Source: an uncultured Tateyamaria sp. (GTDB lineage: Bacteria > Pseudomonadota > Alphaproteobacteria > Rhodobacterales > Rhodobacteraceae). From it: a stretch of 64,000 nt of DNA. The DNA lies in NCBI RefSeq assembly GCF_947503465.1, contig NZ_CANNDN010000001.1:1116001-1180000 (forward strand), in the 5' to 3' direction. Positions within the stretch are counted from its first letter, which is position 1; every line of letters starts with the position of its first letter. Both the position numbers and the translations under genes were made by a program. Shown piece after piece: positions 1 through 51,064 of the stretch. The notes beneath the pieces were generated by a model. The model worked only from the letters and a program-made list of their open reading frames with translations. It did no database searches and was not told where the DNA came from.

Positions 1-1910
1 GGGGGGCCGGGGGGGAGGCCGACCTCATCCCATACGTCGAAAACAAACCCATCATGCAGCCCTTCGGCGACCGCTCCAAGGTCGTGATCGAGCCCCTGCT
101 CACCGACCAATGGTTCGTGGACACCGACAAAATCGTCGGCCCCGCGCTGGAGGCTGTGAAGAATGGCGACGTCAAAATCCTGCCCGAAAGCGGCGAAAAG
201 GTCTATTTCCACTGGCTCGAAAACATCGAGCCCTGGTGCATTTCGCGCCAACTCTGGTGGGGGCACCAGATCCCGGTTTGGTACGCTATGGACCCAGAAG
301 CTGGGCAAGACCTAAAGTTTACCACATTCTGTGCATCAGACTTTGAAATCGCAAAAAAGGATGCCTTCTTACATTACAGCAGTAAGTTCCCAGACGCTAA
401 CGTCTCCATTGAAGAGATGTTTGACGACGTTACCGATGCATGGCCTGAGTCCGAAGAAGACTACGCTGAATACAATGAGTTTGCCGAACAACACGGTTTA
501 ACCAAACGATACAAAACGCAAAAGTTGACGGGGAGCAGAGCCAGCAGGTGGCGGGTTACAAATGACAAGATAACCGGCCAACAAACGCTGACTTTTTGGC
601 TTAGACGCGACCCCGACGTCCTCGACACCTGGTTCTCCTCCGGCCTCTGGCCCATCGGCACCCTCGGCTGGCCCGAGAACACCGAGGAACTGCAAAAATA
701 CTTCCCCACCTCCGACCTCATCACTGGCCAGGACATCCTGTTCTTCTGGGTCGCCCGCATGATGATGATGCAACTGGCGGTGACAGACAAAATCCCCTTC
801 GACACCGTCTACCTCCACGGGCTCGTGCGCGACGCCAAGGGCAAGAAGATGTCGAAATCCACCGGCAACGTCATCGACCCGCTCGACCTGATCGACGAAT
901 ACGGCGCCGACGCGCTCCGCTTCGCCTCCGCCGCGATGGCCTCGCTTGGCGGCACGCTCAAACTCGACACCCAGCGCATCGCAGGCTACCGCAACTTCGG
1001 CACCAAGCTCTGGAATGCTGCCAGCTACGGCGAGATGCGCGGCACCTTTGACGTGCCGCACACCGCCGACATCCCCGACACCAACCACCCGCTCAACGCC
1101 TGGATCAAAGGTGAAGTCGCCAAGACCCGCGAAACCGTCGACCAAGCGCTGAACGACTACCGCTTCAACGACGCGGCATCGGCCCTCTACGCCTTCACCT
1201 GGAATACGTTCTGCGACTGGTATCTCGAATTCACCAAACCCATCTTCGACGAAGGCACGCCCGAAGAGATCGCAGAAACCAAAGCCACCTACGCCTGGGC
1301 ACTCGACCAATGCCTGATCCTGCTGCACCCGATCATGCCCTTCATCACCGAAGAACTGTGGGGCCAAAAACAGCGCCCCAAACGCCTGATCCACGCCGAC
1401 TGGCCCACCTACACAACCGATCTGGTGGACGCAGAGGCCGACGCGGAACTCAATTGGGTGATCAAGCTGATCGAAGCCATCCGCTCCGCCCGCGCCCAGA
1501 TGCACGTCCCCGCAGGCGCCTACGTCCCCTGCGTCGTCAAAGGGTTCGAACCTGCGGCACGCGCGGCCTACGACCGCAACAAGGCGCTCATCCACCGCTT
1601 CGCCCGACTGGAATCGCTCACGGAGGTCAACGACTTCCCCAAAGGCACCGTCGCACTTGCCATCTCCGGCGGCACGTTCGGCCTGCCGCTTGCAGACGTG
1701 ATCGACGTCACCGAAGAAATCGCCCGTCTCGAAAAAACCTTGGGCAAACTCGCCAAGGAACTCGGCGGCCTGCGCGGACGGCTCAAGAACCCCAAATTCG
1801 CACAAAGCGCCCCGCCAGAAGTTGTCGAAGAAACCAAAGCCAACCTGGCTTTGCGCGAAGACGAAGAAAGCAAACTCCAGGAAGCGCTCACCCGGCTCAA
1901 AGAACTCTGA
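1..1910 (+). CDS. valS: valine--tRNA ligase, 5' end outside window
   Basis: Charges tRNA-Val with valine in the cytosol. The frame is open from base 3 of the window, so the N-terminal part of the enzyme, with the HIGH motif, is missing. Visible class Ia motifs are the editing/catalytic segments WWGHQIPVWY and DPDVLDTWFSS, the KMSKS loop (GKKMSKSTGN near base 850), the anticodon-binding region, and a C-terminal coiled-coil tail rich in E, K and L. Between WWGHQIPVWY and DPDVLDTW there are about 108 residues (about bases 292-604) where most ValRS have far fewer. That stretch is clearly AT-richer than the rest of the gene but stays in frame. Identity is certain; the extra segment is the only oddity. 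Confidence 0.97.
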   Translation, partial: GAGGEADLIPYVENKPIMQPFGDRSKVVIEPLLTDQWFVDTDKIVGPALEAVKNGDVKILPESGEKVYFHWLENIEPWCISRQLWWGHQIPVWYAMDPEAGQDLKFTTFCASDFEIAKKDAFLHYSSKFPDANVSIEEMFDDVTDAWPESEEDYAEYNEFAEQHGLTKRYKTQKLTGSRASRWRVTNDKITGQQTLTFWLRRDPDVLDTWFSSGLWPIGTLGWPENTEELQKYFPTSDLITGQDILFFWVARMMMMQLAVTDKIPFDTVYLHGLVRDAKGKKMSKSTGNVIDPLDLIDEYGADALRFASAAMASLGGTLKLDTQRIAGYRNFGTKLWNAASYGEMRGTFDVPHTADIPDTNHPLNAWIKGEVAKTRETVDQALNDYRFNDAASALYAFTWNTFCDWYLEFTKPIFDEGTPEEIAETKATYAWALDQCLILLHPIMPFITEELWGQKQRPKRLIHADWPTYTTDLVDAEADAELNWVIKLIEAIRSARAQMHVPAGAYVPCVVKGFEPAARAAYDRNKALIHRFARLESLTEVNDFPKGTVALAISGGTFGLPLADVIDVTEEIARLEKTLGKLAKELGGLRGRLKNPKFAQSAPPEVVEETKANLALREDEESKLQEALTRLKEL

Positions 1911-1930
1911 TCCTCGTCATCTTGCCAGAT

Positions 1931-1996
1931 AAACTCCGGGGAGTTTGAGGGGCTGAGCCCCTCATTCAGAAAGAGATCGCGCCGCGCGTCAGCGCG
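1931..1996. repeat. two-hairpin intergenic repeat, copy 1
   Basis: Just after the valS stop lie a 16-bp dyad (AAACTCCGGGGAGTTT, 1931-1946), a hairpin GAGGGGC-TGA-GCCCCTC (1947-1963), the bases ATTCA, and a second hairpin CGCGC-GTCA-GCGCG (1983-1996). The same order and spacing (hairpin, ATTCA, about 36 bp, CGCGC hairpin, GTCC) recurs at 38864-38914, so this is a repeated element and not a chance terminator. It may act as a transcription terminator for valS, but there is no T-tract. Confidence 0.6.
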
Positions 1997-2053
1997 TCCT
2001 GTTGATCAACATATCGTAAATGCACCGTCCGCTCCGTTAACGCGGGCAACGAG

Positions 2054-2103
2054 GTGCATCCCCGGTGTACGGACTGTGCACAGGTTGTGCACACATGGTG
2101 CAC
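2054..2103. repeat. array of five GTGCAC-type hexamers at exact 11-bp spacing
   Basis: Hexamers start at 2054 (GTGCAT), 2065 (GTGTAC), 2076, 2087 and 2098 (all GTGCAC), a perfect 11-bp period with variable 5-bp spacers. The array lies between two convergent genes (valS and the crotonase), so it is not an obvious promoter element for either. A second array with the same period is at 50104-50142. Helical phasing of a palindromic hexamer suggests a cooperative DNA-binding protein; the protein is unknown. Confidence 0.6.
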
Positions 2104-2167
2104 AGCCCTTTTCATGCGGCAAAAACGGTTAACCTATTTGAATATATGGTAAATCACACGCCGCGAC

Positions 2168-2962
2168 TCAGTCCGTGAACACAGGGGCCCGCTTCTGGAT
2201 TTGCGCCGCCACAACCTCCATCTGCTCCGGTGTGCCCATCAACTCCGCCTGCACCCGGCTCTCTTCCAGCAACACCTCATCCGGCCCATGCGTCTCGGCA
2301 TATCCAATCAACGCCTTCGCGGCCCGCAACGCCGCCGGTGACTTCAGGCTCAATGCCTCGGCCAACGTCATTGCAGCCGCCAGCGGGTCCTCGGCCAACT
2401 CCGTGACCACCCCCCAGGCCTCTGCTTTCCCGGCAGAAATCGGCTCGGCCGTATAGGTCAGCTTGCGCAACACGTCCCCGCGCACCAGCCGCGGCAAAAG
2501 CACCATGCCGCCCATGTCCGGCACGATCCCCCACTTCATTTCCATCACCGCCAGGCGCGCATCAGGCGCCGCGATGCGTATATCCGCGCCCAATGCCAGC
2601 TGCAGACCCGCGCCGTAACAGACCCCATGCACCGCTGCGATCACCGGCATCGGCACCCGGGTCCAGACCATGGCCACCTCCTGCCACTGGTTCGTGGTGC
2701 CGTCCCCATGGGTGCGGGGCATCAGCAAGTCATTGGGATCCTTGCCAATCATGGCCCCCAAGCCCCCCACATCGATGCCCGCACAAAACCCCTTGCCCTC
2801 GCCCGAGATCACGCAAACCCGCGCTTTCGAGGACGCCACCTCGCGCCCCGCCGCAATGATCGCGTCGATCATCGCCTGATCCACGGCATTCATCTTGTCC
2901 GCACGGGTCAGGCGCACATGGGCAATGTGGTTTTCGTAGGTGATGGACACGCGATCAGACAT
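2168..2962 (-). CDS. crotonase/enoyl-CoA hydratase family protein
   Basis: A 264-residue crotonase-fold protein acting on acyl-CoA thioesters. The oxyanion-hole region CAGIDVGG and the second one near YGAGLQLALGADIRIA are present. The first of the two classical hydratase glutamates (as in GGGCE) aligns with Gln in GAGLQ; the second is kept in VMEMKWGIVP. This favours an isomerase or other crotonase activity over a classical hydratase. The start ATG at 2962 (MSDRVSITYEN) fits family length; an upstream in-frame extension to 3241 is probably not translated because it covers the intergenic region and the start of the divergent aminotransferase gene. It is divergent from that gene. Confidence 0.88.
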   Translation of the reverse strand: MSDRVSITYENHIAHVRLTRADKMNAVDQAMIDAIIAAGREVASSKARVCVISGEGKGFCAGIDVGGLGAMIGKDPNDLLMPRTHGDGTTNQWQEVAMVWTRVPMPVIAAVHGVCYGAGLQLALGADIRIAAPDARLAVMEMKWGIVPDMGGMVLLPRLVRGDVLRKLTYTAEPISAGKAEAWGVVTELAEDPLAAAMTLAEALSLKSPAALRAAKALIGYAETHGPDEVLLEESRVQAELMGTPEQMEVVAAQIQKRAPVFTD

Positions 2963-50084: not shown

Positions 50085-50103
50085 CGCGCAATGCACAAAA
50101 CCG

Positions 50104-50142
50104 GTGCACGGCCTGTGCACACTCTGTGCACGGGTTGTGCAC
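50104..50142. repeat. array of four GTGCAC hexamers at exact 11-bp spacing
   Basis: Hexamers start at 50104, 50115, 50126 and 50137, all perfect GTGCAC with 5-bp spacers. The third-to-fourth unit (GTGCACGGGTTGTGCACAC) closely matches the 2076-2094 piece of the other array. Here the array ends 49 bp upstream of the mtnP start, where it could regulate transcription. Confidence 0.65.
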
Positions 50143-50191: not shown

Positions 50192-51064
50192 ATGACCCAG
50201 ACCAAAATCGCCGTGATCGGCGGCTCCGGCATCTATGATATCGACGGGCTGGAGGAGGCGGAATGGACCACCGTCGACAGCCCCTGGGGCGCGGCGTCGG
50301 ATCAGATCCTCACCGGTACGCGGGACGGCGTCGCCATGGCCTTTCTGCCGCGCCACGGACGGGGGCATGTGCACTCACCGACCACCGTGCCCTACCGTGC
50401 CAATATCGACGCGCTGAAGCGTCTTGGATGCACGGATGTGATCTCGGTCTCGGCCTGCGGCAGTTTCCGGGAAGAGATGGCGCCGGGTGATTTTGTCATT
50501 GTAGATCAATTCATTGACCGGACCTTTGCCCGCGAGAAGTCGTTTTTCGGGACGGGCTGTGTCGCCCACGTGTCGGTTGCCCACCCCACCTGCCCGCGCC
50601 TCAGCGATGCCTGCGAAACAGCCGCCAGGAGCGCGGGCATCCAGGTGCATCGCGGCGGGACGTATCTGGCGATGGAAGGGCCACAGTTCTCGACCCTTGC
50701 CGAGAGCAAGATGTACCATGAAAGCTGGGGGGCGGACGTGATTGGCATGACCAACATGCCTGAGGCAAAACTCGCCCGCGAGGCAGAGCTGTGCTATGCT
50801 TCCGTCGCCATGATCACCGACTATGACAGTTGGCATCCAGACCATGGCGAAGTCGACGTAACCCAAATCATTCAAACACTTATGGGCAATGCCGACAAGG
50901 GCCGCGCACTGGTCAAAGGGCTGCCCACGCTGCTGGGGGTCGACCGCGCGCCCTGCCCGCACGGCTGTGACCGGGCGCTGGAATTCGCGATCCTCACTCA
51001 ACCCGACAACCGCGACCCTGCGCTTATGGCCAAGCTGGATGCCGTGGCCGGGCGCATGCTCTGA
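50192..51064 (+). CDS. mtnP: S-methyl-5'-thioadenosine phosphorylase
   Basis: A 290-residue phosphorylase of the PNP/MTAP family. It contains AVIGGSGIYDIDGL, LPRHGRGHVHSPTTVPYRANIDALK, GGTYLAMEGPQFSTLAESKMYHESWGADVIGMTNMPEAKLARE and MITDYDSWHP, all MTAP features (phosphate and substrate binding). It releases adenine from methylthioadenosine; adenine would go to the Apt protein encoded downstream. Confidence 0.95.
   Translation: MTQTKIAVIGGSGIYDIDGLEEAEWTTVDSPWGAASDQILTGTRDGVAMAFLPRHGRGHVHSPTTVPYRANIDALKRLGCTDVISVSACGSFREEMAPGDFVIVDQFIDRTFAREKSFFGTGCVAHVSVAHPTCPRLSDACETAARSAGIQVHRGGTYLAMEGPQFSTLAESKMYHESWGADVIGMTNMPEAKLAREAELCYASVAMITDYDSWHPDHGEVDVTQIIQTLMGNADKGRALVKGLPTLLGVDRAPCPHGCDRALEFAILTQPDNRDPALMAKLDAVAGRML

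Follow-up and report, generated by a model that had tools for sequence, protein, structure and literature searches.

Plasmid partition sites of the parC/StbA type consist of iterons, 11-bp direct repeats that present one site per helical turn. On chromosomes, Noc-type nucleoid-occlusion systems use tens of dispersed protein sites, and REP/BIME repeats, which are associated with RAYT transposases, are extragenic, multicopy and unevenly distributed among relatives. AIMS and KOPS are strand-biased octamers, of which KOPS load FtsK; the available part of the source sets the AIMS criterion at 96 or more copies per genome (PMC5993296).

Within the 64,000-nucleotide stretch of DNA analysed here (the window), five GTGYAY hexamers follow one another at exact 11-bp steps on the + strand between positions 2054 and 2103, as a preliminary description had reported: GTGCAT starts at 2054, GTGTAC at 2065 and GTGCAC at 2076, 2087 and 2098, with the last base of the array at 2103. 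The feature is defined by this reading of the window and by orthologous arrays in the relatives G003 and G011. It does lie between convergent genes, namely the 3' part of a valine--tRNA ligase gene (54-1910, + strand), which starts before the window and scores below the model cut-off for NF004349 because the piece is partial, and a crotonase/enoyl-CoA hydratase family gene (2168-2962, - strand; NF005699, above cut-off). Upstream of the array, at 2023-2041 (+ strand), is a copy with one mismatch of a box, CACCGNACGCNNCGTTAAC, recovered in a genome search whose matches lie beside arrays. Downstream, a GTTAAC at 2128-2133, given without strand, represents a motif noticed by eye, and without a statistic, in about half of the retrieved arrays. 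A second array of four GTGCAC hexamers with the same 11-bp period occupies 50104-50142 (+ strand), about 50 bp upstream of an S-methyl-5'-thioadenosine phosphorylase gene (50192-51064, + strand; NF006492, above cut-off), and the orthologous place in G003 also holds an array (L098). The account of the first array thus stood, although it had overlooked the second array, the box upstream of the first, the agreement of polarity with local skew and the places shared across genera.

The regularity of these repeats lies far beyond chance, as had been proposed. Allowing up to two mismatches, GTGYAY-N5-GTGYAY-N5-GTGYAY matches the window 11 times against an expectation of 0.12, none of 100 shuffled windows reaches 11, and every match falls within the two arrays (2054-2103 and, at this tolerance, 50093-50142). 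Over the whole home genome (G000), a similar pattern gave 77 + 72 matches compared with 3 + 1 for a reversed control, and the matches listed define at least 32 distinct places. Same-strand pairs of GTGYAC at 64 loci of two species are spaced by 11 bp 134 times, by 12 bp once and by 13 bp six times. Window expectation, shuffles, the genome-wide reversed control and these spacing counts together led us to reject a chance origin.

The repeat unit is GTGYAC followed by a less constrained 5-bp spacer, which prefers A or G at position 7, mostly G or C at position 8, mostly C or T at position 10 and T or G at position 11. The unit logo is alike in G000, in G003 and in 109 arrays of a named set retrieved with a four-unit pattern and carrying four to six units each; this set was obtained by removing 11 of the 120 stretches listed as non-Rhodobacteraceae or plain tandem repeats, with names at hand for 80 of the 120 and the rest of the choice guided partly by the look of the sequence and GC content. 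In G000, one array has three units, 24 have four and seven have five; the corresponding numbers for G003 are 3, 20 and 9, in a set that leaves out one listed single-mismatch place (C1:808011). Like parC/StbA iterons, the arrays consist of phased direct repeats with a period of one helical turn, an arrangement suited to head-to-tail assembly. They differ in being dispersed over the genome, mostly with four or five units each, instead of forming a single centromere, and no partition genes were noticed beside them when neighbours were looked over by eye.

The arrays lie outside gene bodies, even though about 0.89 of the sequence of the loci is taken up by called ORFs; 3 of 32 overlap a called ORF, and these only within its first 70 bp, where the start is uncertain. 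Along the G003 chromosome, 32 places among the matches listed are spaced more evenly than random (CV 0.65, P 0.0075). Tens of dispersed sites per chromosome recall the Noc-type arrangement, from which the arrays differ in being directional and phased.

A frequency no higher than in shuffled sequence and a lack of conservation in close relatives had been named as refuting conditions, and neither check refuted the proposal. For 25 of the 32 home arrays, G003 also carries an array at the orthologous place (32 G003 loci compared); two further home arrays are matched at orthologous places among eight G013 loci. Across the 25 orthologous G000-G003 pairs, identical bases number 520 of 540 at the fixed hexamer positions, against 237 of 415 in the spacers and 2139 of 3000 in the flanks. 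Hexamer identity exceeds flank identity in all 25 pairs, and the spacers diverge faster than the flanks. Because the pairs were picked for having arrays in both species, the retained share of 25/32 is the fairer measure of conservation. Retention of arrays at 71% flank identity would be unlikely without selection, and the kept hexamers and places argue that the sites are probably under selection now.

Conservation of position extends beyond the genus. An array stands directly before lpd, and in the direction of lpd, in Palleronia, Yoonia, Roseobacter insulae, G311, G283, G235 and G326, and G100 carries a degenerate form at an eighth place. Among 29 genomes with an lpd match, five have the lpd array; it is absent from 10 other array-bearing and 14 array-negative genomes, and by eye no other hexamers were seen at the lpd position in the latter 14. 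Similarly, Planktomarina and Paracoccus loci carry an array directly after gltD, as do 10 of the 30 genomes searched for it, comprising G000, G003, G005, G007, G011 and, weakly, G010 within the genus, and G221, G311, G108 and G235 from other genera. For both gltD and lpd, place and direction are kept across genera. Named genomes among the matches listed include Tateyamaria, Paracoccus, Pontivivens, Yoonia, Palleronia, Nioella, Sulfitobacter, Planktomarina, Leisingera, Roseobacter insulae and others, and the spacers differ by species while the hexamer is fixed. A family sample that took about one genome from each genus gave matches in 29 of 295 genomes, which represent 28 of 294 genera (own genus counted). 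Four or more matches were found in 21 genomes from 20 genera; the remaining eight genomes had one to three, which is near noise because the reversed control totals five matches in the same sample. With four or more matches in 20 genera and few or none in the rest of the 294, the array system is dispensable. A search of plasmid records with a 201-bp query gave no match.

Polarity provided a further chromosome-level property. Each array was oriented as 5'-GTGYAC-R...(T/G)-3' and compared with the local skew over 3-4 kb, and the array strand proved to be the locally C-rich strand at 87 of 91 distinct decided places. By group, agreement was 29/31 in G000, 31/32 in G003, 8/8 in G013 and 19/20 distinct places in seven other genera (22 places minus two duplicates), with one place undecided in this four-group comparison. 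In the named set, 92 of 108 decided places agreed and one was undecided, and the GTGTAC feature alone agreed at 25/25 places in G003 and 26/28 in G000. Composition drift predicts the opposite sign, since the strand rich in C and A is the one whose spacers end in T or G. The skew itself is strand-based and not coding-based, as genes on both strands share it at 4-fold sites. It peaks within about 3 kb of the array and has become weak at a distance of 10 kb on the 3' side, extending longer on the 5' side in G235; near skew exceeded far skew at 22 of 29 sites (p 2.4e-4) in a non-random set for which 7 of 10 G003 sites had been picked for replichore disagreement.

Dispersal, strand orientation and occurrence in related taxa are likenesses to AIMS/KOPS, as far as the available part of the defining source goes (PMC5993296). 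The differences are that the arrays have three to six phased units, number in the tens, are extragenic and occupy individually conserved places; multi-unit arrays at 32 or more places contrast with the high-copy octamer criterion of at least 96 per genome given in that part of the source (PMC5993296). As to the replication-strand bias of AIMS/KOPS, the arrays agree with local skew at 87 of 91 places but less closely with the whole replichore, for which agreement was 23/32 in G003, with boundaries drawn by eye and ori/ter placed roughly from skew, and 9/10 in G235 by our own reading of the data. Few-kb patches of skew opposite to the replichore were observed in G003 near 107 kb, 767 kb and 1886 kb (L168-L169, L172-L173 and L176-L177), and each contains an array that agrees with the patch.

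We first favoured the array as the cause of local skew and dropped this after comparisons at gltD and valS. Among genus members, skew at gltD was 0.095 with the array (n=6) and 0.108 without (n=13; p 0.70). At valS, the array-less G014 (-0.18) and G008 (-0.20) are at the level of array-bearing genomes, while G006 and G018 show a lower skew of about -0.10. The 4-fold skew of lpd differs weakly, -0.363 with the array (n=8) versus -0.207 without (n=24; p 0.04), and the difference is absent from the 1.4 kb upstream (p 0.33). Taken alone, the lpd 4-fold difference would point to the array as the source of skew, but the gltD test does not. Because the skew at gltD and valS persists in relatives that lack the array, polarity appears to track some feature of the locus, and may merely reflect it; past arrays could conceivably have been the source of that locus skew. 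Alternatively, polarity could stem from insertion bias or from hairpin avoidance on the lagging-strand template, selection of the latter kind being conceivable because the better-folding strand, judged by the sign of the skew, is the leading-strand template.

What reading accommodates these properties? The suggestion that a structural, partitioning or regulatory protein may bind such an array remains, on sequence grounds, the best one. We put at about even probability the more specific proposal that the arrays are dispersed directional docking sites for one putative DNA-binding protein, with a role at the level of the chromosome over control of neighbouring genes. Units of 11 bp would put the same near-palindromic hexamer on one face of the helix, and copies of the putative protein may align head to tail along three to five turns of the helix to give a short polar nucleoprotein filament. 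With at least 32 sites outside gene bodies around the genome, oriented with a replication-type local strand asymmetry, the likeliest role would be chromosome organisation, segregation or the guidance of a machine that travels on DNA. Such a role fits better than local regulation because the arrays are extragenic, more evenly spaced than random in G003, kept at orthologous places and strand-aligned. Counting against the docking-site proposal are the dispensability of the system, the looser agreement with whole replichores and the skew that array-less relatives retain.

A bolder version, in which one putative protein and 30 or more phased arrays, their orientation set by the direction of replication, form an undescribed chromosome-wide polar filament system that organises, segregates or protects the chromosome in part of the Rhodobacteraceae, with a fixed hexamer and species-specific spacer dialects, is a tentative proposal to which we assign less than even probability. 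We found no description of such arrays in full-text literature on these hexamers or on intergenic repeats of the family or of Paracoccus, a coverage that mostly excludes subscription papers. In an abundant marine family, the arrays resemble an addressing system on the scale of the chromosome, and offer a ready-made 50-bp DNA bait with which the putative protein could be sought in a single experiment. Furthermore, a genus with zero to many arrays is a natural contrast set for gain and loss of the system and for site polarity, and a fixed hexamer with species-specific spacers exemplifies binding-site dialects that change rapidly under strong constraint.

A dispersed mobile repeat, a small MITE-like transposable element of box-array-box form inserted with a replication-strand bias and with some copies later kept, is an unlikely explanation that nonetheless accounts for several observations. 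Copy number varies from 0 to 138 matches per genome in the genus sample, whose 20 genus members include the array-rich G000, G003, G007 and G011 and the array-poor G006, G014, G017 and G018; 2 of 21 genomes from outside the genus in that sample have one or two. In part of the G000 arrays, a larger layout was recognised by eye in which the upstream box CACCGNACGCNNCGTTAAC is followed by the array and then GTTAAC, often with an inverted copy of the box downstream. With up to one mismatch the box occurs at nine places in the genome, all nine beside arrays; allowing two mismatches gives 19 places, of which 15 adjoin arrays. A reversed control gave nine matches. The site of the array at 2054-2103, here called the valS site, is also informative: the array is present in G000, G003 and G011, G002 has a short remnant resembling the box, G014, G006, G018 and G010 have the same two genes and no array, and several other relatives have a different neighbour gene. 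Against mobility stand the retention of hexamers while spacers and flanks diverge, and the places common to several genera. The arrays are extragenic, multicopy and uneven among relatives in the manner of REP/BIME, but they differ in their fixed hexamers, exact period and shared places. Identity with REP/RAYT was rejected, as the REP transposase PF01797, the sole transposase family searched, was present in 8 of 52 genomes and did not track the arrays; in this search it was absent from G000 and from the array-rich G001, G005, G008, G011, G053, G235 and G326. The sites may still have originated from a mobile element, given the box-array-box form, the array-less valS sites and the uneven copy number. 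Flank types vary among the home loci (L022-L053), some arrays having GTTAAC boxes and inverted CACCGTACGC/GCGTACGGTG ends and others standing alone before a GnCGTTTTC-like stretch.

The arrays might instead be operators at which a global transcription regulator binds phased repeats cooperatively and controls adjacent genes, an explanation we regard as rather improbable. Phased direct repeats are typical of cooperative regulators, and the array stands immediately before the lpd start codon in the eight places described above. The gltD arrays, however, come after the stop codon, and orientation tracks strand skew, not gene direction. Among 31 oriented arrays of G000, flanking genes are arranged +-, -+, ++ and -- six times each, with seven arrays one-sided; in G003, the arrangement is +- for 10, ++ for five, -- for four and -+ for four, and nine have a gene on one side or none. 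Convergent genes thus flank 6 of 24 two-sided arrays in G000 and 10 of 23 in G003. These counts agree with the earlier statement that the array is not a normal promoter element and weaken an operator at promoters as the general role; at the same time they remove the convergent position, previously singled out, as a special feature. Functions of the neighbouring genes look mixed, mostly by eye, which likewise speaks against this explanation.

It is highly unlikely that the arrays act as RNA, transcribed so that the palindromic units fold into hairpins serving as a terminator or stability element. Adjacent units are able to pair, the second window array folds with a z of -5.84 on the + strand, and one terminator-like site overlaps a window array. 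When flanks of 10 nt are included, folding is better on the + strand than on the - strand in 30/32 arrays of G000, 30/32 of G003 and 100/109 of the named set, a preference partly built into the orientation scoring. However, spacer pairing is no better than that of permuted spacers in the G000, G003 and named sets, arrays occur on either strand relative to their neighbours, and hairpins have no need for a fixed 11-bp period. Rfam covariance models gave no match at the gathering score in window positions 1900-2300, and a consensus scan gave no sigma-70-type promoter at the array. The idea that the array precedes an unannotated transcript consequently gained nothing from Rfam, from the promoter scan or from spacer stem co-variation, and we rejected the RNA reading, for which Rfam, folding and spacer permutation support hairpin capacity only.

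Uptake signals occur in far more copies than the 32 or more places counted here, which weighs against a DNA-exchange signal. That the arrays are uptake or packaging sequences, for example for gene transfer agents (GTAs), has a very slight probability, as the dialect-like species-specific spacers, the concentration of GC skew within about 3 kb and the lack of known GTA packaging start sites, according to the part of PMC6854486 available, are offset by the independence of skew from the array at gltD and by the nonspecific DNA binding of the RcGTA small terminase described in the same part (PMC6854486).

The four-unit pattern also matched 22 stretches in IMG/VR. A phage link was rejected after ORFs had been inspected around 9 of these 22 and around five non-Rhodobacteraceae genome matches, some of which lie in coding repeats and none of which resembles the present arrays. 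Repeats of GTGTAC/GTGCAC at 11 bp with other spacers were observed in low-GC genomes (L256, L272, L327, L339 and L340) and viral contigs (L346-L367), some within coding repeats and others iteron-like. Finally, the valine--tRNA ligase gene contains a hypervariable, low-GC stretch at about 294-653 of the window (GC 0.42-0.50 at 301-600). Residues ~81-200 of its ORF have 5-55% identity per 40-residue block to six close relatives; in the adjoining blocks, identity to the same six is mostly 85-95%.
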